From positions 1 to 56,544 of IMG/VR virus record IMGVR_UViG_3300030098_005893: a stretch of 56,544 bases of DNA. The stretch is one strand, 5' to 3'. Both the position numbers and the translations under genes were made by a program. Every line of letters begins with the position of its first letter. Within the stretch, counting starts at the first letter, position 1. Source of the DNA: a virus. Below, piece after piece: positions 16,462 to 46,349 of the stretch. Under the pieces are notes generated by a model, which saw nothing but the letters and a program-made list of their open reading frames with translations, did no database searches and was not told the origin of the DNA.

Positions 16462-16493
16462 GCGGGGGTGATCCCCGCCCCCCCGGAGGGGGC
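16462..16493. terminator. Adjacent hairpins after the VWA gene
   Basis: GCGGGG/CCCCGC (16462-16478) is followed by a copy of the CCGGAGGG palindrome (16477-16493) that overlaps the VWA stop codon. They probably stabilise or end the VWA transcript. No T-run is visible. Confidence 0.45.
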
Positions 16494-18313: not shown

Positions 18314-18367
18314 GATGTGAGTTGAATTGAATTGGATTGAATGTTGATAGTTTAGGTTGGAAAATTT

Positions 18368-18415
18368 CCTCCCCCCGGAGGGGGAGGTTGCTCACCCGCA
18401 TTGCTACGGGTGAGC
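18368..18415. promoter_or_regulatory. Two hairpins between the AAA and VWA genes
   Basis: A near-perfect palindrome of the CCGGAGG family (18368-18387) is followed by a perfect 9-bp stem (18390-18398 with 18407-18415). Lying in the 122-base gap of the pair, they could tune the ratio of ATPase to VWA protein. Confidence 0.45.
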
Positions 18416-18435
18416 CCCGTAGCATCGGGAAGTGT

Positions 18436-26113: not shown

Positions 26114-27500
26114 ATGGCTGACATGGAGGAATCTTACAAAGATGCGCCTGTCGAAAATCCCTATGGGAACGACAGCATGGACGACTTTCAAGCTGGCATT
26201 GCAAGGCACCAGCGAAACATAGACGCTCTTGTTAGGGAGCAGGAGCAGAGAAAAGCGGAAAGAAAGCGGCTAGAAGATGCTCGTCAGGCGGAAATAGACC
26301 GCGTCGCAGGGGAACGCGCAAGAAGGCAAAATGAAGTAATCCTGCAAAGAGCCAAGGAGGACGGCCTTGATGATTACCTAGTCCCAGACAGTGAAGGAGT
26401 CCTTAGGTCGTCTTTAACAGAGGATCAGATTGCAAGACACAGAGCGAATAAAAAGCTGGAGGAAGAAGAAATGGCAAAGAGGTCTCTTGCAAAAGAGCAG
26501 GCCTCTCGCACTGACCCCGGCAGCCTTAAAGATCAGCTATCTCAAATAGACGTTTTATCTGAGGCCAAAAGAAAATCCGAGGAAGAGTCCCTGCAAGCCA
26601 ATAGAGACCAAATACGATACTTGGAGGCATCGGTCTGGGAGGAAAAAGACCAGCTAATTTCGGGAGTCAGGGAAAAGATTAGGGCTTCAGAAAATGCCTT
26701 AAAAGCTGATGACGAGGCCATTGATCAAAAGGCAGCAATTGAAGCTGAAATACTCAGAAACCAAAGAATCGCAGAGGGGTTCCCTGAGGACCTTGCTAGG
26801 GATGTAGACGGGAGGAGGACTTGGACGGCTCCCCCGGCGGAGGATGACCCGGAGGCGGGAGGGAAGTGGCTGGACGCATATAACCGCGAGGTTGAAATAA
26901 ATAACTCCCGGCGAGAGCAAATCAGCGAAACTGAGAAAAAGGCGGCAGACGCATATCAGAAAAGGGTAAAGGAACTGGAAAGCTCTTTTGTTGAATGGGC
27001 TGAATCAGGGGCGACCCCAAAGCAAATTGCTGAGGCAAAAGAGACTTTGCAAGACGAGTGGGGGAAGGCCACGGCTGAATACCTGAAGGAAAGGTATAAG
27101 TTTGAGAGCGAACTCAAGAAGTCTGAGGCTAGGTCGAAATCCCTAGACCTTCTACGGCCAATTGTTGGTGATTACCTTGAGGATCTCAAGGGGTATTACC
27201 GGGGGAAAGAAGAAGAAGCTGAAAAAGCGCAAAAGCAAAAAAGAGACGCAATTGCCGACAAGTTAAAAAAAGAATACTATGAGACGTTTGGCAAAATTCC
27301 CCTTGATGGAAGGGAGTATGTGGACCCCGCCGATCCAGTTCTAAATGAGATATTCAAGGAGCAACAGAAACTCATCAAAAAAGGGTGGGAGGGTGTCCCC
27401 GATGATTACGAACATCTCGGTCCTTACGCCGCCAGTATGGGCCCAATTGGGAGCAAAGAGGACAAAATTGATTACGCGCAATGGAGACTAAGCGAGCTTG
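26114..27500 (+). other. Giant protein: coiled-coil N-terminus
   Basis: Residues 1 to about 460 are dominated by Glu, Lys, Arg, Gln and Ala in heptad-like patterns, like helical regions of ejected virion proteins. The PVEN motif is at 26147-26158. Confidence 0.7.
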
Positions 27501-30500
27501 ATGCCGCGTTTGGCCGCCGTATTGAGTTCCTTATGGCAAGGAACTCTGAGGTGATTATGTCTCTTCAGGAAATCCTGTGGAAAATGGGCAGCACATCAGC
27601 CCTCCCCGGATCTCCATCTTTGCTAAAGCAAATGGGGAAGTATAACTTTGACTCAAACTTGGTATTAGAGAGTCACAGGTTCCCTTTGTATAACAAAGAG
27701 GACTCGCCCGTTTTTGATCGAGTTGAAGCTGGCGTAGCCACGGTTCCCCTACAGATAGCGGCCAACATCTCCCTTGCGTTTGGCTACGGGCTGTCAAGGC
27801 TGGTTGGTCATACTGCTCGGACGGTCAAAAAGGCAGCCCCCGGAACACAGTATAAGGAATACCGTAGATTTGACGAATGGCTTGAGAACAGCGGCCTCAC
27901 TCACAGTGAGGCAAAGCACGGAATGCAGGAAGTGCTTAAAGGCTGGAAAAAGTGGGGGAAGCCTAATGAGGAAATGGCAAGGTATAGAGCTGATGGAGTA
28001 ATCCTGCTGAACCCTGATCTAAATGTGTTGGATAGGGGCCTATACAAAAAGGCTATAGAGTCTACGGATGCTCCGAGCTTTATCAAAAAGCATTACCTTG
28101 GCGAAGGGGCACAGGAAAGGATAAGGAATGTTTACGCTTCGTCAATTGAGCATCAGGCCAACGCGGCTTATGCGGGGCCCGGGGGTATCCCGATGCCGAA
28201 TGAGTGGATGAAAGAGGCATATCCCGACAACTCTTTAAGCATCATGGATGATGTTGAGGAGATGGCGAACAAGAGGGCTGAGCTAAGGGAGCAGATAGGC
28301 ACTCTAGATGAATCAGACCCTGCTCTCACCGGACTCAAAAAAGAGGAAGAGGAGCTGACCAAGAACATCGAGATGATGCGAGACGTTGCAAAAAACGCTC
28401 GCGCTGAATGGAGAAAAAACACTCCCGAGTATTCCGAGCAAATAGAGGAATGGCTGCGACTTTATGGCAGAGACAAGCCTCTTGCTTATTTTACTAGGCC
28501 AGCCCGGAGCTTGGCCTTGGGCGGGGGCAAGTTCCTGCAAACTATCACCGGGGTTGGGGCCATTCTTGAAGTTCCCGGCGCTCGCAATGCCACATTGTCT
28601 TTAGCTGATGGCATAGAAGAACAGCGCGTGGCCCGTGATTTTGCGGGAGGGGCCATTCCCGTAGTAAGCGCAATTACAGACGTTATAGGAGAAGAGGGCC
28701 CATCTCTTGTGTTCTCTCTTATTCCGGGCACCGCGCTTGGCGCAAGAGCTGCCGCTCTCGTAAGGAAGCAGGTCGTAGCAGGCGCCCTGACCAAAAAAGC
28801 AGCCTCCAAGCAAGTTGCAAAAGCAGGCCTCAGGGGGTCCGCTATTGGCGCTGGAGTGCAGTCTACGGGGCTTTCATGGGCTCAATACTTTAACGATGCA
28901 AAAAGGGTCCGCGAGGAAGAGCTTGGCAGGCCGCTAACTGAATCTGAGCTAAACGAACTTGCAAAACTCCCCGCAGTGCAAGGTAGAGCAGTGATGACAG
29001 GTCTTTTGACGGCTGGAACCGTCAAGGCGTTTGGATTCACAGGAACTGAGGTAGTTTGGAGAAAGGGAACAAACATTACTGTTCGTGATTGGTGGAGGCA
29101 TGTGGCATCAAAAGCCAATACGACCCCAAAAGAGGCGTGGCAGAAGTGGGCGGGAGCCGTTAAGGCCATTGCAAAACCGGGCATTTGGGAGGGTCTTGAA
29201 GAAGGCACAGACCAAGTCATTTCTTCTCTCGCTTTTGACAGAGGGATTTCCATGGGAGAAGCCCTTAGTGGGGGAGGGAAAGCAGCTATCGCGGGACTGA
29301 TTCTTGGATCGGGAATAGGAGGGTTGATGTCCACCCAGCAAACGGGCGCGATGGCCGAAAACCTATCCAACCCGGATACGGCTCTGGAGGCGTTGAAAGA
29401 CGTTTTTGGCAAAACTGATTACACTCAAGGGGAGGTTGAAGATGCTTTTGAGCTGATAAACTACCCTGCCAATGCCCCGAGCGATGCAGATGCAGCAGCT
29501 CGAAAGCTACAAGCCGGGATATTGGCAAATAGAAGCCTCGCAGAGGCAGAAAGCCGAGCGAAAGCGGCAGTTAAACTTCATAACACAAAGGGCGAGCCAG
29601 AGGCCGCAGAGGCTGCGCTTCAAAAACTGAAAGAGGTCAATGCCGCTAAAGGGCTCCTCAAAATTGCAAGCGGCAAGGTCAATAACGAGCTAGACCTCAC
29701 CTCAGAAGAGCTTGAGGGCGTAAACAAGGTAGTCGATGACTATGGCTCTCCCCTTCTCAGAGAGGTTAATGGCCAGCTTGTAATAACCAAAGCGGGGACA
29801 AATCTCATAACAGAGATATCTCCTGACGCGGCAAGTGAGCTTGTTGCCTTAAATGAAGAGGCAAGGCTAAGGCAGATCAGGGAGGCCTCAGCCCCCAAAG
29901 TAGCCGAAACCGATCCCAAAGTAGCCAAAACCGATCCCAAAGTAGCCAAGCCCAAGGAGGAAGCCGAAACTGCCCCTAAAGAAGCCGAAACTGCTCCTAA
30001 AGAAGCCGAAACTGCTCCTGAAGTAGCCAAAACCGACCCTAAAGTAGCCAAACCTGCGGAGGCAGCAGCCAAGCCAGACGTATCCAAGATAAAAGGAGCG
30101 GCTGTTGAGGGCGGCAGACAGGTTATCCGCAACTCGAAAGGGGAGCATTATTCCAAACGCGCAAGCGCCCAGATACGGCTGGATAGGCTAATCAAGGACA
30201 AGAAGCTGCCTGCTACGGGGTTTAGTGTTGTCGAGGAAGAGGCAGGGAAGTGGATCATTGCAGAGGATGTAAAGGGTGAAGAGGCCGCTCCCTCCGGAGG
30301 GAAGAAGAAGTGGAGGGTCACAATAAAAGGAGTAGGGGAAAAGACGAGAGCCGTTGAGGTTGAGGCCGAAACCAGAACTGATGCCATTGCAGCCGCCGCA
30401 AAGGAAGCAGACACGGCAAAGGGTGAAACGGTGGTTGTGGCTTCTGCTACGCAAATTGAGACGGATGCTCCCGCGACTCAGGAAGCCCCGGAGGAGGCCC

Positions 30501-33500
30501 CAGAGGAGACGAAAGAGCCAGAGCCAGCCGCCCACAAGGTGGCCAAGGTTGAGGACGACGCCCCAGACGCAAAGGGGCGTAGGCGCTTCACGGCATATGA
30601 TGAAAAGGGAAACCTTTTGGGGTCGATTGAATATGTAATCAAGGACGGGGTTGCTATCATCAAGGGCCTCGGAGGGGGAGGCGGCAGCAAGGCCAAGACA
30701 AAAATCAGGGGAGGGATGCGGCCCACTTTTGACGCCTTCTTGGATAAACACAAGGTGGTGCAAACGGGGGAAAGCACAGATAATGTATCTAATGCTGGGC
30801 TAAAATTCTTCTATGATCTTCACAAGACGGGAGAATACGAATTCACCCCAGTAAAAGGAACCGCCGTAGAATCTAATTCTATGGCCATTCGGCCAAAAGG
30901 CTGGAAAGGGGAAAAGGGGCTCTCGGCGCTAAAAGCCTTCAGAAGAGTCTTTGGTGGAGATACGGCTTCGGGCAGGAAAGGGGACCTAGCGATTCACACC
31001 GCTGGTGAAATGATCAGGCATCCCCACGCGCTCATTCAGAAGAAGGAAATAGCTCCCGAGGCGAAGGAGGCCCCAGAGGAGGCCCCAGAGGAGACGAAAG
31101 AAACGGCATCTGTAAGGCAAAGGCTACAAGAGCTAAATCTGTTTAATAGGGTTGTCGATGAAACGGAGGAAACCCCTCTCCCCAAGGGCAAGCTATACTC
31201 GATAGACAAGAATGGTAATGTTATACTGAGCCGCAAAGTATCCAGCTTCTCTAAGACAAGGCAGTCAGAGATTAGTGCGGAGATTGTTGCCGAACGGGGA
31301 GCGGCGGGAGCCTTGAGCCAGAAAGAAGGGGAATTCTGGTTCAGCATGCTTCCTAAGCATGAACAAGAGTCCATTGCGCGGGAGGCCCGTCTAAAGCATA
31401 ACATGGGCAAAGACGCGAGCGATGCAGATGTAGTAAGATACATGCTGGCGAAAGGCATGACCCTGAAGATGCTTGAGACGCTTAGCAGGGGAGCCCGAAA
31501 GCTAAGAAAGGGCGACGAAGAAGCGCACAGAACGGTCTTGGGTTATTTCCTCAGGTATCTCAGGAGGTTTGCCGACAGAATAAGAGCTATCACCACAGGG
31601 GACTCATTACTTGCAAGAAGGTTGCAATTTTATGAGAAAATGGCCTTCGCGTTTATTGCGGAGCATACAAACGCAAGAACTCTTGCCTCTCTTGGGATTG
31701 CAATTCCTGACAGCAGGATATCTGACCGCAGAGACGTTGTCCTTCATCCAAACATCAGGAAGACAAAAGATGGGAAATATGAAGTAACTCTTCCGGGTGG
31801 AACTAAGCAAAAGTTCAAAACACTTGCTGAAGCTCGTGAAAAAAACGCCAACAAATACAGAGACCAAACTCTAAACGCACTAAGTATAGCAACAGCCGCG
31901 TTGCGTAGAGGCGGGGGGTTGAGCGCAGACGAGCTTGAGGCGAAGATTGCAATCATTAAGAAAAAAATCTCTACAATTGCGGCAGTAAGGCCCTTTATTA
32001 CAAAGGAGTCTTTATGGGCCAAGTTCACTGTGGTATTTGTAGACGGTGAGTATACGTCTCTGATTGAAGAATACAAAAAGGCCAAGCCGAAAAGCGAAAG
32101 GGCACAAAAATTAGAAGACGCTATAGCTGCCTATTTGGGCAAGTTGGTCAAACTTAATGAAGACATCACTCGGGATCTGGAAAACGCAACGCTCAGGGAG
32201 AAGTCTCGTGGGGCTCTGGCAGCCAGTAGGATGGTTGCCTCCTTCGCCGCCGATGTGGCAGATGGAAACCTCGCCCAAACAGAGCCAATGCGACAGGCAA
32301 GACGAGAGTTCTTGGCTTTGGTCGGAAAAGGGCCTGTTCAGGAAAGATTACGCAAATTGCCAGAGCTTGTATTACGACAAGAAAGAATAACTGAAAGAAT
32401 AGCCGCTCTTGCCACTGAGGAGGAAGCCGTAGGAGGCCTTCCTCTTTTCGATGACGCAGCAGACCCCGCCGAGATGGCCAACCTGAAAAAGGAGCTGGGT
32501 CAGGTTACCAATGATATAGCTTCAGCCCATGCCGAGCTGGACGCAGATTATGCCGCAAAAGTAGGAAGGCTGGCCCCGCGCAAAACCCAAAAGGCTACGA
32601 CTAGAGGAATCTCGCAACGGGTTAGCGTTCCGGGCAGGGGGCTCAAGTCCGTCATGGGACTTACGAGAGAAGCTGATGCCTCAACCATACTGCATGAGTT
32701 TGTCCACGTATTGCAAAAAACTCCGGACGAAACAAACCCAGATCAATCTCTTTGGGATTCCGCTTTGGGTAGAAAAAATGCAGCCAAGCTAAGAAAGTGG
32801 GCCAAATCGGTTAATCCCGCCGAACCTGAAGAGGCAGAAGCGGAGGCGATGGAGACCTACCTTAAAGAAGGAAAAGGAAGAGGGCTTGAGGTTGCCCCTT
32901 CCCTGCTTGACGCCTTTTCAAGGGTCGCCTCGGCTATTTATGGGGTCTACGGGGACACCATGAGGGAAAAGGGCGGGGGATACGACATACCTGAGGAAAC
33001 AGTGGCGAGTCTTGATGCGCTTTTTGCGGACCCAGTAATAATCGGGAACTCAGTAACCGCTAACGCCGCCAAGATTAGGGATCAGGTCCAACGCTTCTGG
33101 GATGGAGCGATGCCGATAAGCGAGGAAGAGGTCATTCTTGGTCTTCCAAACGGAGCCGTTCAAGTTGGCTTCAAAAAAGCAAAGGTAGCCAAACAGCTTA
33201 TTGAAAAGAACTACCGAGCCTTTTTCGGGGACAGCGCAAAGGTCGTTGAGTATGAGGGCAAGTTTTATGCGGGGCTGGATATAAACAAAGCCTTCGGGGA
33301 GACTGAGAGAGGATTTGGTCCAAGCCTGCAAAGAACCAAGGCGAAGAGGCCTAACGCTGGCAACGATAGATTCCGGGTTGGGACCTCAAGATCGGACTCT
33401 ACAAGGCGGCGAGACACTGCCAGCAACATTGGGATAACAACAGTAAGTGACGATCTTCTGGCAAGGCAAATGGAGAAGTTTGATTACGATCACCTTCCTC

Positions 33501-36500
33501 AGAGCATTCGGTCAGAAAGAAACCCGCAAACAAAAAGGGAAAAAGCAATCGAGTGGATGGTCGAAAATATCTTGGCCGTTCATGACGCTCTTCCAAAGGA
33601 GGTAAGAGAGAGGGCGGCCCAGTGGTATGATGGGGCTAGCAAGCTCGCAAATAAGTTAGCCAAGAAATATAAATACACCAAAGTTCAAACCGCTGGCGTT
33701 ATTGCTGTTCTTTCCCCTCAGAATGGTTGGTTCAAAAATGCATCACAAGCCGAGAAGGTTATTGATATTTATGCAAATCACCGGAACGAGGTGATTGATC
33801 CCAAAATCCACGGGGAAGCCATGGAGCTAATAATCTCCAAGGCACAAGCGGCACAGTCGGCCAAGAAAAAGGTTGTAGAGGGGGAGACCCCTAGACAGAA
33901 GGCGCTGAGGCAAGCCTACAACAGGAGGCTCGATGAGCAGAAGCGAGATCAGCGACGAGCCATAATGGAAGGCATAACCGGGTATACTATTAACCAGCTA
34001 GGCAGAATAGACTCGGAACCTCAATCGTGGGCCCTGAGAGTGCTGGCTACGCATTACTGGTCTTCAGAATACAATGTTCTAAGCCCTGAGGGGGATATTT
34101 TGTGGGTGCAGAGAAAGAACCCCACAAAAGCTCAATTGAGAGCCGGAGAAGAGGGCAGCCCATCGACGCATGGCTGGGGTTCCGCCCAAGAAATTGGCAA
34201 TGCAATTGCAATTTTGAAAAATGGCAGTCTTGAAAACCTGCACAGAATACTTGGCAATGAACACAAGGTCCGGAGCTTCTTTAACAACATAGTTGCGCCC
34301 AACAGCGCAATGGGGGACGTAACCATGGATACGCATGCTGTGGCGGCGGCTCACTTGATGCCATGGGGGATATCAGCTATTGCCGTGGATCATAACTTTG
34401 GCGGGAGAGGGATACCGAATTCAAAAGTCGCTGAAGGGGTTTCAGGGCTTTACCACTTATACGCTGATGCATACAGAGAGGCCGCTCGGCGTAGAGGGAT
34501 ACTTCCCCGCGAAATGCAGTCAATTGCTTGGGAGGGCATTCGACTCATCCACCCCAGCGAACAAAAAAAACCAAAACATCTAGCCGAGGCCACTAAAACG
34601 TGGAAGAATAACAGCAATGCCAGAGCAAGAAAAATCATCATCAACAGAAGTAGATCCTTCTATCCTGAATGGTTTGTCAGAGAACAAACTCCAAGAACTA
34701 AAAAGGTCACAAAAGGGACTAAAGAAGATGGGTCTCGATTGGAGCCTTCCACAAGTCGCACTACTGGAGCTAAAAGATCCAGAAGACGAGGACGAAGCGC
34801 CCCCAGCCTTCAGCGCGAGAAGGAACTCACCTTCCCGGGAATTCAAAAAGTTGCGGACGGCCCATCGCAAAAAGTTATCGAAACGAGCTTCGGAACACTT
34901 GGAAAAACGGGCGAAGATGCCTACACTTTCCTTACAGAAGTTTACGGAACAAGCGAAGCGTTTAATGAAATCCTAAGGGATACGGGGTTTGCCCCCGGAA
35001 TGTTCACTTACCTGTATCCTAAGGTCAAAAAGGCCGAAAAGGATATATTAAGGGACTGGGCAGAAGAAAACAATTTGCTAAATGACTTTGTCGGGTTCTT
35101 CCACGAACACGCAAAAAACGGACAGGGAGGATATGAGAACTTTGTTATCCACAAAGGCAAATATGTGGAGAAAGTATATCATGGTGACGCCTCTCTGCTA
35201 GAGCGGCTCCACCAGATTCTATGGCATAACTACTATTTCCCCGAGGCGGCTTATGAGGTTTTGGGGTTCATGGCCAAAGATGACGATTTTTTTATTCATG
35301 TCAGGCAGCCAGCCCTTACGGAGGATCAAGATGGAGAACACCTTACCAAGGAAGAGGCTAAAGAATTCTCATACGATATAAATGACGATGTCATCTTGAT
35401 GGGAGACGGCCAAAAGCCAACAAGGCAGGGAAGGCTGGTCGCAGCGATGGCCGAAATGGGGCTAGTCCCCATTAGCAACACTACCTTTTTTGACCCAGAG
35501 GAAAATGTAATTATTTCCGATCTATATCGCTATAATTTTGCAATAGAGCTTGGGAGGCCCATCCCATTTGACCCGGCTTTGCGCTCAGGAAAATATGGGA
35601 ACAACAAGTTTGGGGGTGTTTTGTTGCAAGACAGCATGATTCAGTTGCTGAAGAAAAAGAACCTTCTTGCAGACCTAACATCCCGCGAAGAAGTCGAGGC
35701 TGGGCCTCACCATCAACCAGAATCGGGAATAGACGTAGGGGAGTATATTGAAGAGGTTACTGCAAAACACATGACCGAACATGCTCCCGCAGAGCATGAA
35801 ATATCTCTTAATGGGCAAAGCGTTTCTAAAGGCCGCCTCACTGGCCTTTTGGGTTCCTCTAAGCCCTCCCTTCAGAAAGCACCGGAGTCTTACCGCAAAT
35901 TGGGGGACCCCCCCGAACGCACTAATTGGAAAGACAACGAAACCCTCCGCAGGGAGGTTGACGATCAATGGTTGGAGCTTGCAAAGGAGAGCGGCCACAC
36001 AACTGTTAAAGGCGAGATGGGCGTTGTCCCAGATGCCGAGATCGGGGGCGAGAAAAGGAAGATGCTCGCAAAGTTCACAAGAAGGTTGGCCGAGATGGCC
36101 GGACTCGTGCCGTCCCCCCATTTGCCTCCGACCTTGTTCCATGGGACAATGCGTCAATTTACGGCATTTAAGGTCAGGGATGACCACACCCTTGTTGGGG
36201 AAGACGGTGACATGGTCCTGTCCAACTATTGGGGGAACGGAGTTTACCTTACTACTTCAAACCAAGACGCATATCACAACTACGCTAGAGTTGGCCCAGA
36301 CATGAGGGCCGAGGCTAAGCAAAGAGCCAAGGAAATACTAGAGGCTCCTACAGTATTTCAATCGTCGCAACTTGCAAGAGCGGGACAGCGAGGGGTGACT
36401 CGGGAACAGCAAGCCTATGTTATTGCGCTTGCAGAGCTAAGCCTTGATGCCGAAGGCTCCTTTGTTCATGAGGTATATGTCCAACTTGAAAACCCAGCTA

Positions 36501-39500
36501 TCATAGGCCCGGATGAGCGAGGGGTGCATGTGAGGTTCAGTCCTGCCGTTGACGTAAATCACCCTGTCTTAGACGCAGTTGAGGCGGTAAGGCAAAACCT
36601 TGAAGAGAAGCATGATGTAGTAGCCCCAAGAATGGAAGCGATGGCCAAGTTGGCCGAAATCTTGGTGGATAGTCGAGGGGCCAGCTATGAAAGAGTTGGC
36701 AACTTCCTGAGAGACAACCTTCTCTATATCGCCTTTGAAAAGGGGGCTATGGCCACCAAAGTGCCGCTTGATCCTCAAGAAATGGCCAGAAGGGTATTTG
36801 CTGCCCTTGGGCACGATGGAATTATTGACCGGAGAGCTGGCAGCAAGTTCAGGAAGATGAAGGGGGTGGACCCCGATACGGCGCATGTCCTTGTCTTCCG
36901 CCCCGAACAAGTGAAATCGGCAGATGCTGTCACCTACCACCCGATCACCAAGGAAATCGTCTTGCCTTCACAGCGGTTCGATTTCACAAGCTCGCAGATT
37001 AACTTGCAAGGCGGGGTTGATGAAAGAGGAGCAAGAGCATCAAGATCGGTTGGAGTCAGAAAGGCTCTTGAGGAGATTGACGAGGTTAAGGGGTGGAATA
37101 GAAATCCTCTCAATACATGGGAAATAGTTACAGACACCGGAGTTGCGTTTGAGGTCCTCAGGTCCAAAGAAAACCACATCTACCTCAAGGCAATTGCAAC
37201 AGTTGGCGAGAGGAAAAAAGGCCACGCAGGAAATGTCCTTGAGAAGCTCAAGCAAATTGCTGACAAACATGACGTAGGGATCGAGCTGTATCCTAGCGCG
37301 TTTATTGAACGCACCGGAGAAAGGGGAGACGAGCTAACGCAAAAAGAGCTGGAAAACTTCTACAAGAAGCGAGGATTCGTTAGACAAAAATCAGCATATG
37401 GGGGCCCGGGGTCAGAGTTTTTCTACCACAAAAACCCGTTAGCATTTAACCCCCACATTAACGAGGACCCGCAGTCGGCAGAAGAGGCAATAGAGTCTCT
37501 CAGGCTTGCAAATAGGGGTGAGGACCTAAGCCAGATGGATACTGGCATGTTTTCAGAGGACTTTGAGGAGTCGTATTACGAGCCATGGTCTTTTGAGGTG
37601 CCGGGGAGATTCCTTATCGCAGACAGCAGCCCTGAGCATATAGCAGACCTAGATAGGTATATCGGGGCCATGGAAGACGCGGCCATAGAATATAGCGGCT
37701 CTGAATCTGTTGACCCGAACTTTGAAGACTACATTGATCTCCGCATCAGGTTGATGCAGGTGTTGAGTGACTTTCTTCAGGAGCCAAGTTTCTCAAGAGG
37801 TTTCCCGCCCACACGTTCCGGAAGGCCATCATTGCAACGAGGCATTGATGACGCTGACGCAGATAAGCCGTCTGACCTTCAAGAGTCATCCACTTTTGAT
37901 ATAGACAGGATGCTGAAGCTGGTTGGCAAGAACATGTATGGCACCAACCCGGCAGGGATTCTGGGCAAAGAGCTGTTCCAAAACTCCGTGGACGCTGTCA
38001 TGAAGAAGCAGAAGGAGGAGGAGGCTAAAATGCCAGCTAGGATAGAACAGTTCGTCCGTGACGAATGGTCTAAAGCTGGAGTGTTGGAGGACCAAGTAGA
38101 GAGCGCCGTAGAGAATGCTCTATGGCGATGGGAGACTGACGGAATTACGCCAGAAGGCTTTAATGAGTATGAGCCCACTATTTTGGTTCACGAAGGAGGG
38201 ACTTGGTTTGGACAGGAGGGGGCAGTTCTTTTGAAGGATGAGAGCGGGGAGATGTTTGAGGGCAAACTGCTCTCGTTTGCCGACAACGGTATCGGAATGT
38301 CTCCTGAGACCGTGTGGAGCAAGTTTTTGCCAGCCTTTGTATCGGCAAAAGGAGTTGGAGAAGGGGGAGGGTTTGGAATTGCAAAACTGGTATTCCTGAT
38401 GGGTCCTAACAACGTCAGGGTGTCCACGGTCAACGAAGACGCCGAGGGGCGCAGAATTATGACGGAAGTGGAGATCAAGCCCGGGGCTTACAAGAGATTC
38501 CTGAACAAAGGGAAAGTAGCAACTCCAGACAACATGCTGGAGCCCGGAAACGAGACGGAGGTTGTCCCGGGCTTGACCATAAAGGTTAGCTACGCCCCTG
38601 AAATGACATCAGGAGCAGACACGGGGACGGCATACATAATGGGCACCCCTAACCCTAATGACCCTAATAATGAGCAGTGGAACTACGCAAAGAATGCAAG
38701 CTGGAACAGGGCAGTTGAGTTTATACGAGAGGCATCAGAATTGACTCCTCACGTTAGTCTTGCAACCGAAACCCACAACGCAAGTATCCGGAGCCAGCTT
38801 ATGGGAACAAGCACCCTGTATGAAAAGAGGGAGGCTGGGGAGAAGCCAAGGATTGCCAAGGGCGACACTTGGTTTGAGATTTATGACGGGGAAACGCAAA
38901 GAAAGAAAACGAGGGAATATGTAATAGCGGCAATCAGGAGGCAGGATTTGGAGCTGGTCGAGAGGTATGGCAACGACTCTAGGGCATATAAAGATGGCCT
39001 AGAAGAGCGTTCTAGAAATTTAGAGAGGCCTGCAATTTACGAGTATGCGGGAATATCGCGGTGGGCTGCTGAGGCCCCGCTCGACACAGAATTTCTCAGG
39101 CCACAAGACAAAATCAATAACTGGGTTGTTCTTGAAGACGGGAATATCGAAACGGACCTGTTTGAAATGGAGATCCTAGCCAAGGAGGGAGACAGGCAGA
39201 TTCAAAGCGGATCAATTCAGGCCAAAATACTCAACAGGACGATATACCAGTTTGATGAAACAGTTTCGATGGGGGTCGGTGAAGAGGGACTCGTCCCCGC
39301 CGGTGGAATTGCAATCAACATAAGGTCAAAGGTTGGAGCGGGTGAGGCGGGTTATCCATTTAGCTTAGACAGGAACAATGTTTCGCAGGAGGTCAAAGAC
39401 GAGATAAACACCTTTATGGGCAAATTGGCCCATATTGCCTATACCAAACAAAGAAACCAGTGGGTAAACCGCAGGAAAAACACGGTTCTAATTAGAAGGC

Positions 39501-42500
39501 CCGATAAGGGCGAAGAACAGTATGGCCCAGAAGCAGAAGAGTTTGCAAGTTATGCAGCCGTTAAGGAGTGGGGACAAGAGCCCGGGGACTATATAGAAGT
39601 TCCCGGCGAGTTTCATTTTTTGGATCTGTCTGGGACCTTAGACGAGGGGGTTGTGGAGGAATTTGCAAAAGACCCTGTAATTGCCCAAATCGCTGAAGAC
39701 TATTACGAGATTCAAGGGAGGGTATTAAAGTATCTGAAGCTGAGGAACCAGCATGACCCAGATTTTGGAAGGGCTGGGTTTGCGGGATTTGCAGTCGGAA
39801 CTAACGCATACGGACTTCACTTTCCTTTGAAGTATGTGATGGATAAAAAGTTCGTTTCGGACAACCCAACCGACAGCCCTCCCAGCCTTATTTACCATGA
39901 CCCTCTTGCAACATTGCAACATGTCATAGATGAGCATTCGGTTGGAGAACTCGCAGAAATAGGTGGAGCAGTTCTTCCCGGGAAAGGCCTTCAAGACTTC
40001 AAAAGTGGCGCCCCCATGGCCTATTATACAGGGCTATATCAGGTGTTTTTAGATGAAGTGGCCGGAATTGCCGTCCACGAAGCCCTGCATCAGTCCATTC
40101 ACTCCGAGGGGGTTTCCCTTGCTAGGGGTCTTACATTTAATGCCGGGGGACTCGCATCAACTCTCCAAGGATTTGCAACCGTCCAAGATGTTTTGGGAAC
40201 TACGGACCCAGACGAGCTTGCAAAAAGAGCAAAAATCAGAACAGATAAACTAAAGGATTATTATGAGCAGTTTGAGCAAGATTTTGACGAACAAGAGGCG
40301 CAGGCATTTATTACTGGGACGGGTGCTAAAGGATACAACCTTAGAATTGAGGGACCGAGAGGACGCGGAAAAGGAGCTTATCCAACTGGAAAGCCAGATA
40401 GCCCGGATCAGAAACAAGATGATGGCCGTCAAAAAGGAGGGAAGCTGAGCCTTCAGGGCCTAAAAGACGCCGAGGAAGGCGCTGAGAGAGCCAAGAAAAG
40501 GATGGATAGGCGGGGGAAGCCGCTCCGCGAAAGGTTTAGGATTTTCAGGAAGAGGGACGACAGGACTGCCGCTGGAGCCAAAGTGGTCAAGGGTGACCCG
40601 TCCAGAGCCAAGGTGGGAGAGACCCCTGAGGTGAGAAATGCATATGATGTTTCTCAGGAGATATACAATGACACATATATCGCGCAGAACTTCCCTGAAT
40701 GGATGTCTGGCGCAGCCAAGGTAAGAAAGACAGAGGGTGACGATGAAATAAGAAAGAAAATATACGAATCTGCCGAGAAGCTAGGCCAACCCGGGACTCC
40801 TGAATTCCAAATTGCCTCAATGCAGGTTGTTGCAGACGACTTCCAAAGAGCCCTAGCGTCCGGAAATCAGACAGACATAGATAACGCCATGGCTCTCGCT
40901 CATGCGTTTCAGGAGTTAAGGTCTGAAATTGCAAGAACGATGACCTCAATGCGGGACCCGTTCCAGACCCCGGCTCAAAGGGCCGCATACGCTTTAGGTC
41001 AGGCTATAACTCAAGCCCCGCCGCTTCAGGTTAGAGCGTTGCAAAAAAAGCATGGAGCCAAAGAGGCCGGAGACGAAATACCCTCGCAAAATAAGGAGGC
41101 ATATAAAGAGGACCTCAAAAAGATGGACCGAAATAGGCTGGATAAGTCTAAGGCTGCACTTGTGAGGAGAGGTATGGGAGTAGAGGAAATCTTCAACTCT
41201 AGCAATGAGGGGGTTGCGATTGGGACAAAAGTGGATAAAGACGCTCTTGGCAAGCTCCCGCCAAAACAGCGCAAAGTTGTAGAGATGGCCCGAGAAGGAG
41301 CAGACCCAGAGGCCATTGAAATGGCGACCGGGGTTTCTCAGAAGGGCCAGAAGCGAGCCTTAGAGAAATTCAGGGAAGTCCTTCGCCCTGCGGTGGAATC
41401 TCTGGTGCAAAGAGGCTTCAACGAGGGCAACATGCAGGAATTTGCAAGTGGAAAGCCCCCTGCTGGAAACACCAAGCCCGGAACAAAGGAGGATGTGGAG
41501 AAGGTTCTGTCGAAATCATTTAAGGCTTCTATTGAGGCTTTAAGCCAAAAAGGTTTCAACATAAACAACCCTACTCATGTAATGGCCGCCTTTAGGGCCC
41601 TTGATGATGTAGACTTGGATTATGTGACAAGAACAATGGGAACATGGTATGCAAACGTGTTCTCATCCAAGACGGTGTTAATTAACATGCTGTCGATCCC
41701 GTTCGCGGGTTACCGAGCAATAGCAGAGAGAGGGGTCGAGTCGCTCTTCAATCATTTGCTAAAACACCCCGAGGTATCCACTGCTCCGGAGTTTAAGTAT
41801 ATCGCTAAGGGCTTAAAGACCTATGCCTCGATGGCGTTTTATCAGGCGTTTATGGCTTTCGACACGGAGACGGCATATTTCAACACTTTTGCAAAAGGTG
41901 AGACTTCAGAAGGGAGCCCATACAAAGGGGAGACTCACGAAGAGGTCCGGGGATACCAGATGGGCCACATTTTAGACGGCTTCGATATACTGATCGACAA
42001 ATACGTGTCGCTCCCCGGGATTAAGAAGAAAGGCGAATCTCTAAAAAGGCCCTCTCTTGTCAGGAGGGCGATTGGAGAAAAGGGAGCCACAACGGAATTC
42101 CGTCTTGGGAAAATGGGAAGAGGAGTCCTCCGGTTCAACATGGGAGTTGATGAGTTCATGCGGTTTATGGTGGCGGGGTCAGAAATCGGCGGCATTGCAT
42201 ACAGGATGGGCCGATCGAAGGGCCTTGATGGCGATGCTCTAGAGGAGTTTATCCACAAGGAGATGACGATTCCCGGGTCATCCAGTTGGATTGCCGCCGC
42301 CAATGAGGCTAATATATCAGTATTCACTCAAGACCTTCCGGATTTCCGGAAAGGAGACGTTCCTAAGTCAATTGGAGGAGTGCTTTCTGCCGCCATTAAC
42401 GGCTTGGATCAGTTCTTCAAGGGAAATGAAAAAGCTCTGAGGGCCAGCAAGGAGGTTAGCAAGGTCACAGAAAGCGGAATCACAAAACTCGCAGATGTGG

Positions 42501-43816
42501 CGCTTATAGACGGAACGCGCATAGGATTAGGGGTATTCCGTGTAGCCATGATTCCTTTTGCTAGGGTTTTGGCTAACTTGGTCGTAGTGGCATACGAGCG
42601 CGTTCCCAACCCGATCTCCTTAATGTGGCATGGATACCATGTTGCAAAATACGCGGCAAAGCATCGCGGACTACAAGGGGAGGACAGGATGGATATGGCT
42701 GCCGCCAACTCAATAAGGAAGGTGTCTCGGCAGACCTTGGCCCACATCATAGCGTGGGCGTTGCTAGGAATGTTTGAGGGAGACGATGATGACGGAGAAA
42801 AGCCTATCTTAATAACGGGGTCTATGCCCAAGTTCAGAAAGGGTGCCTCAGCAGAAAGGCGAGCTGCCTACAGGGAGGGGATGGGCCCATATAAGATCCG
42901 AGTAAAGGCTGATGCAAATGTGTATGGAATCCCGGTCGGAAAGATTCTAGGCCTAGAGGAAGACTACACGTTTGACTACGGGAGGATTGATCCCGGCGCT
43001 TTAATTCTAGGAACAACCGTAGACTGGGTCAGAGAGTTCAAAAAGCTGGGGAGAGGTGACACGACGATGTTTGAGGCTGGATATGTGCTTGCCGCAGATA
43101 CAGTAGCGGCCCAATTGACCGACAAAACAATGCTTCGTGGGATGAATGACGCCTTTGGGATGATTTCAGGCCGGGTAACGCCGTATAAATGGACTGCAAG
43201 GAACCTTGCAACAATTCTTGTCCCCAACCTTATTCGGCAACCTATTAGGGATGGGAACCTTTACTATGATGCCACCCTGTCCGTAAGTGACGCTGAGTCC
43301 TTTAAGAGAATGCTTCTTTATGAAATGTTCCCGAATGCAGACAGCAGGATTCTTGGTTTTGATGTCCCATTTAAGAGCAAGTTTGCCCCCGGAGCATCAA
43401 GAGATGCATACGGGGAGCTAATGAAAAGACCCCGTGGGTTTGGTTCATGGATTGCAAAGCAGCAGCCGCACAAGCTGAGATTCTTTGACCAAATGATTAG
43501 GGCCCAGCGAAAAATGGAGCCCTTTAGAGAGGACATTTCCTTGCCCATGCCAATCAGCAATGAGTATGTCTACACCGACGAAGAAACGGGGCTCAAGCAG
43601 AAGCACAAGATGACTCCGTTGCAGTATGACATTGTGCAAAGGGCGTTTCAAAGTATCTGGCAAACAGAGAGGCTCTCTGTTACGAATGCTGACGAAGTAT
43701 CCAAGGCCCGGAGAAGGGCAAGCGATGCCGCTAGGGAAATTGCGTATAAAACACCAGCATTCTTAATCGACGCCAAGCGCGAATTTAATAGGAGAATCGA
43801 GAAGAAAAAGCGATGA
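26114..43816 (+). CDS. 5,900-residue polyvalent protein (candidate polyprotein)
   Basis: One uninterrupted frame of 17.7 kb, about 31 percent of the window. Order seen: PVEN at residue 12; Glu/Lys coiled-coil region (1-460); Gly/Ala hydrophobic segments (about 790-1075); repetitive linker (1261-1320); zincin motif (2194); DUF7178-like (about 2440-2840); kinase-like (2950-3200); ADP-ribosyltransferase-like (3330-3615); GNAT-like (3640-3775); GHKL ATPase (3925-4450); second zinc-site motif (4655); HTH (5048-5095); long C-terminal domain (5150-5900). Six (S/N)LQ(R/K/G) motifs lie between these units. Polyvalent proteins of this type are delivered by phages and conjugative elements to act in the recipient cell. 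The portal ATG overlaps the stop by 4 bases, so a virion-internal protein is likely. Whether it is cleaved is unknown. Confidence 0.9.
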   Translation: MADMEESYKDAPVENPYGNDSMDDFQAGIARHQRNIDALVREQEQRKAERKRLEDARQAEIDRVAGERARRQNEVILQRAKEDGLDDYLVPDSEGVLRSSLTEDQIARHRANKKLEEEEMAKRSLAKEQASRTDPGSLKDQLSQIDVLSEAKRKSEEESLQANRDQIRYLEASVWEEKDQLISGVREKIRASENALKADDEAIDQKAAIEAEILRNQRIAEGFPEDLARDVDGRRTWTAPPAEDDPEAGGKWLDAYNREVEINNSRREQISETEKKAADAYQKRVKELESSFVEWAESGATPKQIAEAKETLQDEWGKATAEYLKERYKFESELKKSEARSKSLDLLRPIVGDYLEDLKGYYRGKEEEAEKAQKQKRDAIADKLKKEYYETFGKIPLDGREYVDPADPVLNEIFKEQQKLIKKGWEGVPDDYEHLGPYAASMGPIGSKEDKIDYAQWRLSELDAAFGRRIEFLMARNSEVIMSLQEILWKMGSTSALPGSPSLLKQMGKYNFDSNLVLESHRFPLYNKEDSPVFDRVEAGVATVPLQIAANISLAFGYGLSRLVGHTARTVKKAAPGTQYKEYRRFDEWLENSGLTHSEAKHGMQEVLKGWKKWGKPNEEMARYRADGVILLNPDLNVLDRGLYKKAIESTDAPSFIKKHYLGEGAQERIRNVYASSIEHQANAAYAGPGGIPMPNEWMKEAYPDNSLSIMDDVEEMANKRAELREQIGTLDESDPALTGLKKEEEELTKNIEMMRDVAKNARAEWRKNTPEYSEQIEEWLRLYGRDKPLAYFTRPARSLALGGGKFLQTITGVGAILEVPGARNATLSLADGIEEQRVARDFAGGAIPVVSAITDVIGEEGPSLVFSLIPGTALGARAAALVRKQVVAGALTKKAASKQVAKAGLRGSAIGAGVQSTGLSWAQYFNDAKRVREEELGRPLTESELNELAKLPAVQGRAVMTGLLTAGTVKAFGFTGTEVVWRKGTNITVRDWWRHVASKANTTPKEAWQKWAGAVKAIAKPGIWEGLEEGTDQVISSLAFDRGISMGEALSGGGKAAIAGLILGSGIGGLMSTQQTGAMAENLSNPDTALEALKDVFGKTDYTQGEVEDAFELINYPANAPSDADAAARKLQAGILANRSLAEAESRAKAAVKLHNTKGEPEAAEAALQKLKEVNAAKGLLKIASGKVNNELDLTSEELEGVNKVVDDYGSPLLREVNGQLVITKAGTNLITEISPDAASELVALNEEARLRQIREASAPKVAETDPKVAKTDPKVAKPKEEAETAPKEAETAPKEAETAPEVAKTDPKVAKPAEAAAKPDVSKIKGAAVEGGRQVIRNSKGEHYSKRASAQIRLDRLIKDKKLPATGFSVVEEEAGKWIIAEDVKGEEAAPSGGKKKWRVTIKGVGEKTRAVEVEAETRTDAIAAAAKEADTAKGETVVVASATQIETDAPATQEAPEEAPEETKEPEPAAHKVAKVEDDAPDAKGRRRFTAYDEKGNLLGSIEYVIKDGVAIIKGLGGGGGSKAKTKIRGGMRPTFDAFLDKHKVVQTGESTDNVSNAGLKFFYDLHKTGEYEFTPVKGTAVESNSMAIRPKGWKGEKGLSALKAFRRVFGGDTASGRKGDLAIHTAGEMIRHPHALIQKKEIAPEAKEAPEEAPEETKETASVRQRLQELNLFNRVVDETEETPLPKGKLYSIDKNGNVILSRKVSSFSKTRQSEISAEIVAERGAAGALSQKEGEFWFSMLPKHEQESIAREARLKHNMGKDASDADVVRYMLAKGMTLKMLETLSRGARKLRKGDEEAHRTVLGYFLRYLRRFADRIRAITTGDSLLARRLQFYEKMAFAFIAEHTNARTLASLGIAIPDSRISDRRDVVLHPNIRKTKDGKYEVTLPGGTKQKFKTLAEAREKNANKYRDQTLNALSIATAALRRGGGLSADELEAKIAIIKKKISTIAAVRPFITKESLWAKFTVVFVDGEYTSLIEEYKKAKPKSERAQKLEDAIAAYLGKLVKLNEDITRDLENATLREKSRGALAASRMVASFAADVADGNLAQTEPMRQARREFLALVGKGPVQERLRKLPELVLRQERITERIAALATEEEAVGGLPLFDDAADPAEMANLKKELGQVTNDIASAHAELDADYAAKVGRLAPRKTQKATTRGISQRVSVPGRGLKSVMGLTREADASTILHEFVHVLQKTPDETNPDQSLWDSALGRKNAAKLRKWAKSVNPAEPEEAEAEAMETYLKEGKGRGLEVAPSLLDAFSRVASAIYGVYGDTMREKGGGYDIPEETVASLDALFADPVIIGNSVTANAAKIRDQVQRFWDGAMPISEEEVILGLPNGAVQVGFKKAKVAKQLIEKNYRAFFGDSAKVVEYEGKFYAGLDINKAFGETERGFGPSLQRTKAKRPNAGNDRFRVGTSRSDSTRRRDTASNIGITTVSDDLLARQMEKFDYDHLPQSIRSERNPQTKREKAIEWMVENILAVHDALPKEVRERAAQWYDGASKLANKLAKKYKYTKVQTAGVIAVLSPQNGWFKNASQAEKVIDIYANHRNEVIDPKIHGEAMELIISKAQAAQSAKKKVVEGETPRQKALRQAYNRRLDEQKRDQRRAIMEGITGYTINQLGRIDSEPQSWALRVLATHYWSSEYNVLSPEGDILWVQRKNPTKAQLRAGEEGSPSTHGWGSAQEIGNAIAILKNGSLENLHRILGNEHKVRSFFNNIVAPNSAMGDVTMDTHAVAAAHLMPWGISAIAVDHNFGGRGIPNSKVAEGVSGLYHLYADAYREAARRRGILPREMQSIAWEGIRLIHPSEQKKPKHLAEATKTWKNNSNARARKIIINRSRSFYPEWFVREQTPRTKKVTKGTKEDGSRLEPSTSRTTGAKRSRRRGRSAPSLQREKELTFPGIQKVADGPSQKVIETSFGTLGKTGEDAYTFLTEVYGTSEAFNEILRDTGFAPGMFTYLYPKVKKAEKDILRDWAEENNLLNDFVGFFHEHAKNGQGGYENFVIHKGKYVEKVYHGDASLLERLHQILWHNYYFPEAAYEVLGFMAKDDDFFIHVRQPALTEDQDGEHLTKEEAKEFSYDINDDVILMGDGQKPTRQGRLVAAMAEMGLVPISNTTFFDPEENVIISDLYRYNFAIELGRPIPFDPALRSGKYGNNKFGGVLLQDSMIQLLKKKNLLADLTSREEVEAGPHHQPESGIDVGEYIEEVTAKHMTEHAPAEHEISLNGQSVSKGRLTGLLGSSKPSLQKAPESYRKLGDPPERTNWKDNETLRREVDDQWLELAKESGHTTVKGEMGVVPDAEIGGEKRKMLAKFTRRLAEMAGLVPSPHLPPTLFHGTMRQFTAFKVRDDHTLVGEDGDMVLSNYWGNGVYLTTSNQDAYHNYARVGPDMRAEAKQRAKEILEAPTVFQSSQLARAGQRGVTREQQAYVIALAELSLDAEGSFVHEVYVQLENPAIIGPDERGVHVRFSPAVDVNHPVLDAVEAVRQNLEEKHDVVAPRMEAMAKLAEILVDSRGASYERVGNFLRDNLLYIAFEKGAMATKVPLDPQEMARRVFAALGHDGIIDRRAGSKFRKMKGVDPDTAHVLVFRPEQVKSADAVTYHPITKEIVLPSQRFDFTSSQINLQGGVDERGARASRSVGVRKALEEIDEVKGWNRNPLNTWEIVTDTGVAFEVLRSKENHIYLKAIATVGERKKGHAGNVLEKLKQIADKHDVGIELYPSAFIERTGERGDELTQKELENFYKKRGFVRQKSAYGGPGSEFFYHKNPLAFNPHINEDPQSAEEAIESLRLANRGEDLSQMDTGMFSEDFEESYYEPWSFEVPGRFLIADSSPEHIADLDRYIGAMEDAAIEYSGSESVDPNFEDYIDLRIRLMQVLSDFLQEPSFSRGFPPTRSGRPSLQRGIDDADADKPSDLQESSTFDIDRMLKLVGKNMYGTNPAGILGKELFQNSVDAVMKKQKEEEAKMPARIEQFVRDEWSKAGVLEDQVESAVENALWRWETDGITPEGFNEYEPTILVHEGGTWFGQEGAVLLKDESGEMFEGKLLSFADNGIGMSPETVWSKFLPAFVSAKGVGEGGGFGIAKLVFLMGPNNVRVSTVNEDAEGRRIMTEVEIKPGAYKRFLNKGKVATPDNMLEPGNETEVVPGLTIKVSYAPEMTSGADTGTAYIMGTPNPNDPNNEQWNYAKNASWNRAVEFIREASELTPHVSLATETHNASIRSQLMGTSTLYEKREAGEKPRIAKGDTWFEIYDGETQRKKTREYVIAAIRRQDLELVERYGNDSRAYKDGLEERSRNLERPAIYEYAGISRWAAEAPLDTEFLRPQDKINNWVVLEDGNIETDLFEMEILAKEGDRQIQSGSIQAKILNRTIYQFDETVSMGVGEEGLVPAGGIAINIRSKVGAGEAGYPFSLDRNNVSQEVKDEINTFMGKLAHIAYTKQRNQWVNRRKNTVLIRRPDKGEEQYGPEAEEFASYAAVKEWGQEPGDYIEVPGEFHFLDLSGTLDEGVVEEFAKDPVIAQIAEDYYEIQGRVLKYLKLRNQHDPDFGRAGFAGFAVGTNAYGLHFPLKYVMDKKFVSDNPTDSPPSLIYHDPLATLQHVIDEHSVGELAEIGGAVLPGKGLQDFKSGAPMAYYTGLYQVFLDEVAGIAVHEALHQSIHSEGVSLARGLTFNAGGLASTLQGFATVQDVLGTTDPDELAKRAKIRTDKLKDYYEQFEQDFDEQEAQAFITGTGAKGYNLRIEGPRGRGKGAYPTGKPDSPDQKQDDGRQKGGKLSLQGLKDAEEGAERAKKRMDRRGKPLRERFRIFRKRDDRTAAGAKVVKGDPSRAKVGETPEVRNAYDVSQEIYNDTYIAQNFPEWMSGAAKVRKTEGDDEIRKKIYESAEKLGQPGTPEFQIASMQVVADDFQRALASGNQTDIDNAMALAHAFQELRSEIARTMTSMRDPFQTPAQRAAYALGQAITQAPPLQVRALQKKHGAKEAGDEIPSQNKEAYKEDLKKMDRNRLDKSKAALVRRGMGVEEIFNSSNEGVAIGTKVDKDALGKLPPKQRKVVEMAREGADPEAIEMATGVSQKGQKRALEKFREVLRPAVESLVQRGFNEGNMQEFASGKPPAGNTKPGTKEDVEKVLSKSFKASIEALSQKGFNINNPTHVMAAFRALDDVDLDYVTRTMGTWYANVFSSKTVLINMLSIPFAGYRAIAERGVESLFNHLLKHPEVSTAPEFKYIAKGLKTYASMAFYQAFMAFDTETAYFNTFAKGETSEGSPYKGETHEEVRGYQMGHILDGFDILIDKYVSLPGIKKKGESLKRPSLVRRAIGEKGATTEFRLGKMGRGVLRFNMGVDEFMRFMVAGSEIGGIAYRMGRSKGLDGDALEEFIHKEMTIPGSSSWIAAANEANISVFTQDLPDFRKGDVPKSIGGVLSAAINGLDQFFKGNEKALRASKEVSKVTESGITKLADVALIDGTRIGLGVFRVAMIPFARVLANLVVVAYERVPNPISLMWHGYHVAKYAAKHRGLQGEDRMDMAAANSIRKVSRQTLAHIIAWALLGMFEGDDDDGEKPILITGSMPKFRKGASAERRAAYREGMGPYKIRVKADANVYGIPVGKILGLEEDYTFDYGRIDPGALILGTTVDWVREFKKLGRGDTTMFEAGYVLAADTVAAQLTDKTMLRGMNDAFGMISGRVTPYKWTARNLATILVPNLIRQPIRDGNLYYDATLSVSDAESFKRMLLYEMFPNADSRILGFDVPFKSKFAPGASRDAYGELMKRPRGFGSWIAKQQPHKLRFFDQMIRAQRKMEPFREDISLPMPISNEYVYTDEETGLKQKHKMTPLQYDIVQRAFQSIWQTERLSVTNADEVSKARRRASDAAREIAYKTPAFLIDAKREFNRRIEKKKR
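28480..29340 (+). other. Giant protein: hydrophobic Gly/Ala-rich segments
   Basis: Residues of about 790-1075 contain several Gly/Ala-rich hydrophobic stretches (LQTITGVGAILEV, VFSLIPGTALGARAA, AAIAGLILGSGIGGL). They could insert in a membrane during DNA entry or pack as a glycine-zipper bundle. The role is inferred. Confidence 0.55.
29895..30060 (+). repeat. Tandem repeat linker in the giant protein
   Basis: Repeats of about 24 bases encode PKVAKTD- and PKEAETA-type units about eight residues long (roughly residues 1261-1320). A second duplicated linker, encoding APEEAPEETKE, occurs near 30480 and 31065. These are probably flexible spacers. Confidence 0.75.
30289..30302. repeat. 14-bp palindrome in the giant gene
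   Basis: TCCCTCCGGAGGGA inside the giant ORF, in a linker, read as APSGGKK. Confidence 0.85.
32590..33040 (+). other. Giant protein: zincin metallopeptidase-like domain
   Basis: HEFVH at residues 2194-2198 (codons from 32693) is a zinc-binding HExxH, and the downstream Glu-rich EAEAEAMETYL can supply the third ligand. It matches zincins found in polyvalent proteins. If active, it could process the giant protein or host targets. Confidence 0.7.
33440..34650 (+). other. Giant protein: DUF7178-like domain
   Basis: IAVLSPQNGWFKNA near 2530, HKVRSFFNNI, DVTMDTHAVAAAH near 2737 and QSIAWEGIRL near 2810 fit a domain also found as stand-alone phage proteins of unknown function. It ends at ARKII just before an SLQ motif. 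Confidence 0.6.
34617..34976 (+). CDS. Possible overlapping ORF inside the giant gene
   Basis: A 119-residue frame, +1 relative to the giant ORF, starts at ATG 34617 with an A/C-rich run before it. Its product has natural-looking Lys/Glu/Leu composition (SENKLQELKRSQKGLKKMGL) and even carries its own LSLQK near the end. The giant frame here is an Arg/Ser/Thr-rich linker. It could be an embedded gene, the trace of a compensated frameshift, or a chance frame. Confidence 0.35.
   Translation: MPEQEKSSSTEVDPSILNGLSENKLQELKRSQKGLKKMGLDWSLPQVALLELKDPEDEDEAPPAFSARRNSPSREFKKLRTAHRKKLSKRASEHLEKRAKMPTLSLQKFTEQAKRLMKS
34970..35720 (+). other. Giant protein: kinase-like domain
   Basis: GYENFVIHKGKYVEKVYHG gives a glycine-loop/strand pair, FFIHVRQPAL a hinge-like segment, and ISDLYRYN (D3136, N3141) a catalytic-loop-like D-x4-N, followed by a possible DFG-like PFDPAL. 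It resembles the protein-kinase-like domains of polyvalent proteins. Confidence 0.55.
36100..36960 (+). other. Giant protein: ADP-ribosyltransferase-like domain
   Basis: LFHGT (H3343) starts the fold; NGVYLTTS (about 3375) and a later HEVYVQLENP, then HDGIID and VLVFRPEQVKS, follow in the order of polyvalent-protein ART domains. It may modify host proteins with NAD. The catalytic Glu cannot be fixed with certainty. Confidence 0.65.
37040..37440 (+). other. Giant protein: GNAT acetyltransferase-like domain
   Basis: IYLKAIATVGERKKGHAGNV (R3700) supplies the R-x2-G-x-A acetyl-CoA loop, followed by IELYPSAF and ELENFYKKRGFV, typical of the GNAT end. A tail of about 130 residues continues to the next SLQ motif. 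Confidence 0.65.
37890..39480 (+). other. Giant protein: GHKL ATPase domain
   Basis: N-box ELFQNSVDA (3953-3961), G1 box DNGIGM (4057) and G2 box GFGIAK (4086) place a Bergerat-fold ATPase in the HSP90/MutL/histidine-kinase class. No kinase dimerisation domain is seen, so ATP-driven remodelling is more likely than signalling. Confidence 0.8.
39850..40330 (+). other. Giant protein: second HExxH zinc site
   Basis: HEALH (4655-4659) followed by a further His at 4663 lies downstream of the GHKL domain. GHKL proteins with a trailing zinc-peptidase-like domain are known, so the two may work as one unit. Activity is unproven. Confidence 0.6.
40263..40448 (+). CDS. Possible frame-shifted coiled-coil segment
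   Basis: A 61-residue +1 frame inside the giant gene. Its last 35 residues (TTLELRDREDAEKELIQLES and on) look like a true coiled coil, while the giant frame opposite is Gly/Arg/Pro/Asp-rich. This suggests either an embedded gene or an ancestral frame changed by two compensating indels. Only the pattern supports it. Confidence 0.3.
   Translation: MSSLSKILTNKRRRHLLLGRVLKDTTLELRDREDAEKELIQLESQIARIRNKMMAVKKEGS
41240..41400 (+). other. Giant protein: HTH (sigma-region-4-like)
   Basis: LPPKQRKVVEMAREG then IEMATGVSQKGQKRALEKFRE (about 5048-5095) fits a tri-helical HTH like sigma region 4 or MerR-type DNA binders. It may contact DNA or RNA polymerase; which is not shown. Confidence 0.5.
41560..43816 (+). 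other. Giant protein: large C-terminal domain
   Basis: About 750 residues, helix-rich with hydrophobic stretches and a basic end (RREFNRRIEKKKR-like). This matches the kind of large domain that ends polyvalent proteins and may anchor them in the virion. The exact family cannot be set from sequence alone. Confidence 0.5.
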
Positions 43817-46065: not shown

Positions 46066-46349
46066 GCATTGACAAGGAAAAGCAAGAGTATGACCGGGCC
46101 CAGAAGGTGGGCGAAAGAGTCGAGAGAATGTGCAGGGAAGAGGGGTGGAGTGACCACTTTATCCCTATGATCCAGAAAAGGAGGGATGAGGCGCAGTCTA
46201 TCGTAAACGACCCAGACAGTGATCAGCTAACCACCCAGCTAAACAGAGGGGTCATAAAGGTCTGCGACGAGGTCTTGGGATACAGGGAATACAGCGAGGC
46301 CCGAGCCGGGAAGATTATGAGGTCCGCTGTTGCCGCCAAGATGCGCTAG
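46062..46349 (+). CDS. Small helical protein after portal
   Basis: A 95-residue, charged, helical protein. The start overlaps the portal stop by 4 bases (ATGA), and the stop shares a CTAG with the end of the convergent minus-strand gene. It may be a small head or packaging accessory protein; no family recognised. Confidence 0.6.
   Translation: MSIDKEKQEYDRAQKVGERVERMCREEGWSDHFIPMIQKRRDEAQSIVNDPDSDQLTTQLNRGVIKVCDEVLGYREYSEARAGKIMRSAVAAKMR

Follow-up and report, generated by a model that had tools for sequence, protein, structure and literature searches.

A short hydrophobic-Gln tag recurs at the joins of a giant phage polyvalent protein and co-varies with the class of its embedded zincin-like domain

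The window, which is the whole 56,544-nt stretch of DNA analysed here, comes from an uncultured virus whose record (IMGVR_UViG_3300030098_005893) is 64.9 kb long, and covers the first 56.5 kb of that record. It holds an open reading frame (ORF) for a protein of 5,900 residues, downstream of which lie a portal gene (SU10_portal) and then capsid and SU10-adaptor-like genes; two genes on the − strand (46346–48042) stand between the portal and the capsid-region genes. The ORF product is a phage polyvalent protein: it is encoded among virion morphogenesis genes and carries several unrelated effector domains, PolyVal types included, with Kinase-PolyVal, ART-PolyVal and DUF7178 all scoring above Pfam cut-offs. 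The N-terminal part of the chain is long; after it come a zincin-like metallopeptidase domain, then, one after another, the effector modules DUF7178, kinase, ART (ADP-ribosyltransferase), GNAT-like and GHKL-like, and last a conserved C-terminal region. The main features are as follows (window coordinates; residues are those of the ORF product).

26114..43816, + strand: polyvalent protein ORF, 5,900 aa, directly upstream of the portal gene
32576..33013, + strand: clade-A zincin-like metallopeptidase domain, residues 2155–2300 (31-sequence alignment; model pLDDT 83)
32693..32707, + strand: HEFVH, putative zinc-binding/catalytic motif, residues 2194–2198 (alignment)
33431..34603, + strand: DUF7178 module, residues 2440–2830 (Pfam PF23802, E 1.4e-26; alignment)
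35027..35368, + strand: Kinase-PolyVal domain, residues 2972–3085 (PF18762, E 1.4e-15)
36446..36928, + strand: ART-PolyVal domain, residues 3445–3605 (PF18760, E 1.7e-8)
37847..40447, + strand: GHKL-like module with a second HExxH (H4655), residues 3912–4778 (weak matches, to CckA kinases only; 59% identical in homologue L016)
40457..43813, + strand: conserved C-terminal region, residues 4782–5900 (60–64% identical in homologues L016 and L114; homologous in L022)

The second HExxH reads HEALH from H4655 (window 40076–40090), and its counterparts in homologues read HEGLH and HEGMH. A low-complexity repeat of the KVAKTDPKVAK/APKEAET type (window 29876–30110, residues ~1255–1332) separates the N-terminal region from the next domain. 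Elsewhere in the window, on the − strand (16493–19989), a gene for a VWA/CoxE-CobT-like protein adjoins a P-loop ATPase-like gene, a pair resembling the MoxR-vWA chaperone pairs described in jumbo phages (PMC7824862). Among isolated phages, a search for close relatives gave only weak matches (24–37% identity), confined to the stretches that contain DUF7178 and ART.

A first-pass annotation had placed six copies of (S/N)LQ followed by Arg, Lys or Gly in the linkers of this protein, and we confirmed all six: SLQ/R at residue 2404, SLQ/R at 2898, SLQ/K at 3252, NLQ/G at 3630, SLQ/R at 3906 and SLQ/G at 4779 (the slash follows the Gln). A seventh site, at Q1456, had been overlooked and is weaker than the six.

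33323..33331, + strand: join 1, GPSLQ/RT (2404–2406); homologues L016 GLSLQ/K, L114 SLLFQ/K
34805..34813, + strand: join 2, APSLQ/RE (2898–2900); L016 TPTLQ/R, L114 SPTFQ/L
35867..35875, + strand: join 3, KPSLQ/KA (3252–3254); L114 PPLMQ/K; module absent in L016
37001..37009, + strand: join 4, QINLQ/GG (3630–3632); L114 DILLQ/Q; absent in L016
37829..37837, + strand: join 5, RPSLQ/RG (3906–3908); L016 APALQ/R, L114 PPTFQ/L (shifted)
40448..40456, + strand: join 6, KLSLQ/GL (4779–4781); L016 GPTLQ/R, L114 PPTMQ/K
30473..30481, + strand: possible extra join, ATQ 1454–1456 (DAPATQ/E); homologues DAPTTQ/T, DAPTLQ/T

The motifs had been described as bounding pieces that each hold a recognised unit. 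This was borne out by Pfam for DUF7178, Kinase-PolyVal and ART-PolyVal, which occupy pieces 1–3, one each; the GNAT unit gave no Pfam match and the GHKL unit sub-threshold matches only. From the composition of the ORF, 0.33 copies of [SN]LQ[RKG] are expected, and when residues were shuffled inside blocks of 40, none of 2,000 trials reached six copies. Two other SLQ tripeptides are present, at residues 159 (before Ala) and 483 (before Glu), not one as previously counted; neither is found in homologue L016, which was read over that stretch. With tags of three to five residues, and SLQ also outside the joins, one might think of a chance resemblance in low-complexity linkers, a reading that the shuffles, the conservation in homologues and the independent statistics in other phages given below render extremely unlikely. 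The codons of the motif vary among the copies (Ser AGC, TCC or TCA; Leu CTG, CTT or TTG; Arg AGA, CGC or CGA). Because they differ, the motif is not a DNA repeat, and the variation reflects selection on the motif at the protein level.

Homologues were gathered by searches with DUF7178 and C-terminal alignments. L016 and L117 are 55–60% identical to the window over most of the second half of the protein, and L113–L116 are 48% identical. The first-pass annotation had named loss of the motif at the same joins in homologues as evidence against it; in the alignment, every join common to the window and these 48–60% identical homologues carries [LFM]-Q. The motif Gln was conserved in 9 of 10 comparisons, versus 34 of 85 for other Gln residues in equally variable stretches (p = 0.005), and in the tenth comparison it was shifted by 9 columns; the linkers around the joins are 19–51% identical among homologues. 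Of the pattern originally proposed, the Gln with a hydrophobic residue before it stands as the conserved core, and the preceding Ser and the following Arg, Lys or Gly drift. In L016 the ART and GNAT units are missing, but the sealed join retains a tag (APALQ/RGIDD). Such gain and loss of tag-bounded cassettes is what would be seen if the tags were traces of module swapping, that is, short homologous recombination joints with no function in the protein; this explanation is very improbable, as the six copies use different codons and the flanks diverge among homologues while the motif residues stay. A further homologue, L022, has QLS/[AG] at most joins and NLQ/Q at join 1. Its joins differ from those of the window, and therefore the tag 'dialect' can change.

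The SLQ motif belongs to a more general pattern: in phage polyvalent proteins a short tag comes back at join after join, in a dialect particular to each phage (LxQ/SLQ, RFS, FMP and others). The recurrence at joins noted in the first pass thus holds, as one dialect of a general feature and not as a peculiarity of the window protein. LFQ occurs four times in the polyvalent protein of Rhodobacteraceae phage LS06-2018-MD07, and dialects without Gln include NYSIG in L017 and L018, FMP in L034 and VFSR in L093; clear non-Gln dialects (NYSIG, NFSIG, FMP/YMP, VFSR) were seen among L017, L018, L020, L034, L093 and L149. To avoid choosing motifs by eye, we gathered loci with one fixed DNA pattern matching the C-terminal end of ART domains, which yielded 219 non-redundant proteins. 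By the residues directly after this anchor, the proteins sort into Gln, Ser, Met and Ala classes. In the first batch, the post-ART tripeptide recurred elsewhere in its own protein 2.05-fold over expectation, versus 1.16-fold for permuted pairings (p = 0.0006). In the full set, 31 of 124 proteins repeated the last two residues of this tripeptide at an independent join on the N-terminal side of the ART, versus 9.8 ± 2.8 expected, and 0 of 20,000 permutations reached the observed count. FMP-type tags were enriched 10-fold, only in FMP-dialect proteins, and nearest neighbours by ART shared a dialect at a rate of 0.28 versus 0.26 by chance. Applied to whole proteins, blind motif discovery recovered a handful of clear dialects (SL in the window, NYS, FMP) and no more, the majority of tags being too degenerate for this approach. 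General counts of [LIM]xQ showed no enrichment over whole Q-dialect proteins, nor did LxQ over the whole proteins of nine isolated phages with a clade-A zincin. The tag signal is a property of anchored joins, not of whole-protein counts.

We next considered the zincin-like domain. An alignment of 31 sequences, the window included, has an invariant HExxH (His, Glu and His), two downstream Glu, an Ala, a Gly and a Tyr; the invariant residues in the window zincin include H2194, E2195, H2198, E2240 and E2247, giving the HExxH helix and downstream Glu that characterize MPTase domains. An AlphaFold model, computed from the 31-row set minus the rows from annotated phage records, was confident (pLDDT 83, pTM 0.77), with the order strand–strand–HExxH–helix; an earlier model from 4 sequences was poor. 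Foldseek with the confident model found no significant solved (PDB) or viral match, the best viral one being a 1,075-residue viral protein, and similarity to Spartan/SprT was sub-threshold. The model, though confident, matches no solved peptidase, and the putative peptidase activity therefore rests on the invariant HExxH and Glu residues. Nine isolated phages with a clade-A zincin, Bordetella phage BPP-1 (Bbp10) and Cobetia phage Carin1 (gp32) among them, carry a Gln tag shortly before the zincin domain. Pseudomonas phage HU1 is likewise an isolated phage with this zincin. L396, L397, L399, L400 and L403 share a T7-like gene order, and in them the genes for structural lysozyme or internal virion proteins are followed by the polyvalent giant, which stands in the place of T7 gp16. 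In another case, L402 (Limnohabitans phage DC33, PQ492659), a 39-kb genome codes for a polyvalent protein of 3,125 aa; the record is classed as Inoviridae, a taxonomy line that looks wrong.

The link between zincin and tag was first spotted by eye in the first loci, and new loci were then fetched. The clade-A type was defined as [AG][DN]x[ST][TSG]xxHE ('ADxST..HExxH'), which includes the window's ADASTILHEFVH. A Gln tag accompanied a clade-A zincin in the same protein in 21 of 21 cases, versus 7 of 76 for others (p = 1e-15). Some ARTs lie directly before the zincin, so that tag and zincin may there be one segment; we therefore excluded adjacent joins, and at joins away from the zincin the Gln tag was found in 11 of 12 clade-A cases versus 4 of 64 (p = 3e-9). 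A stricter zincin definition, again with adjacent joins excluded, gave 5/5 versus 8/68 (p = 9e-5). At DUF7178 joins, 460–1,370 residues from the zincin, the figures were 9/9 versus 0/15 (p = 8e-7), in a set that includes the loci where the link was first spotted. Permuting zincin labels within ART clusters, with adjacent joins included, gave p = 2e-4. HExGHH zincins pair instead with Met tags (6 of 8 versus 3 of 89; p = 2e-6). Two features of a self-processing polyprotein are seen here: a recurrent join motif kept in homologues, and a match between the type of motif and the type of the putative protease in the chain.

Association is not causation, and polyvalent zincins reside in phage backbones: zincin class and dialect could both be lineage markers that travel with the backbone, with another factor, such as a different phage or host protease, reading and cutting the tag. 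Separate prohead proteases do cut virion proteins in other phages (P1 capsid, PMC9024508). We consider this unlikely, as the tag tracks zincin class in unrelated phages and no separate protease of the S78, S49 or trypsin-like types was found in the 64.9-kb record; a search for S77, run without a positive control, also gave none, and Pfam and PHROGs scans of most of the other larger genes returned no protease.

Together, these results suggest that the embedded clade-A zincin (2155–2300) recognizes the tags, which are most likely its cleavage sites, and that the protein is probably a self-processing polyprotein. The first-pass proposal of a candidate polyprotein with protease sites at its joins is thereby strengthened, by the conserved joins and the co-variation of tag and zincin, with the core of the motif redefined as hydrophobic-Gln. 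We infer that one chain would be made, so that all modules would enter the virion together, and that the zincin would act on its own chain, cutting the bond directly next to the Gln of the SLQ motif and releasing the modules from one another at the joins, whether while the virion assembles, inside it or once injected. Modules acquired from other phages would have to adopt the tag of the resident zincin, and the dialect would therefore follow the zincin class, not the module. Points against this reading are that the tag is short and degenerate, that the zincin model matches no solved peptidase, that zincins preferring Gln at P1 are unusual, and the precedent of N4. Uncut tags might instead serve for docking, as short motifs by which the chain is threaded or held on a backbone component (portal, core or zincin-like domain) during packaging or ejection; they do sit in flexible linkers, and the MPTase domain of the N4 RNA polymerase is described as required for packaging of a protein that remains unprocessed (PMC5512222). 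Docking nevertheless seems improbable to us, since joins flanking each effector, with a fixed Gln and a hydrophobic residue before it, fit cleavage sites better. Extending the self-processing reading, we favour, with somewhat less confidence, the view that self-processing is a general trait of phage polyvalent proteins, which would share a protease-site code, with one linker tag per zincin class and acquired modules re-tagged.

These observations bear on the questions of whether the giant proteins that phages inject undergo cutting, at which sites and by what agent. Because the tag can be recognized in sequence, cut sites and protease–substrate pairs can be predicted for hundreds of phages in a single step; the tag also makes the cutting question testable in isolated phages and helps to delimit effector domains of unknown type. 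Polyvalent zincins may also be a source of site-specific metalloproteases with new specificities; a Gln-directed zincin would be unusual.

Self-processing of polyvalent proteins by zincins, and the analogy to RNA-virus polyproteins, were proposed by Iyer et al. 2017 (PMC5512222), and the window protein resembles the polyvalent proteins of that work, with its multi-domain chain including Kinase-PolyVal and ART-PolyVal, nearby virion genes and an embedded zincin. The searched part of that text describes neither a recurrent linker tag nor a match between tag and zincin class. The wider literature likewise yielded no description of either; this is weak evidence of novelty because most subscription papers lay outside the search. 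Phage P1 provides a likeness in DdrB, whose C-terminal domain is an MPTase and which is cut ahead of packaging (PMC5512222), and in DarA, which is cut too; the texts consulted report neither a cut site nor a linker tag for these proteins. The N4 virion RNA polymerase is likewise a giant virion protein that is injected and contains a zincin-like domain with HExxH (PMC12633501); unlike what we propose for the window protein, it is reported to be packaged uncut despite its MPTase domain (PMC5512222), and no tagged effector string is described for it. RNA-virus polyproteins cut by 3C or 3C-like proteases work in the way proposed here, with cleavage after hydrophobic-Gln at the joins by a protease inside the chain, but are not relatives: the candidate protease of the window protein is of the zincin type, its cleavage is a prediction, and the virus is a phage with a DNA genome.
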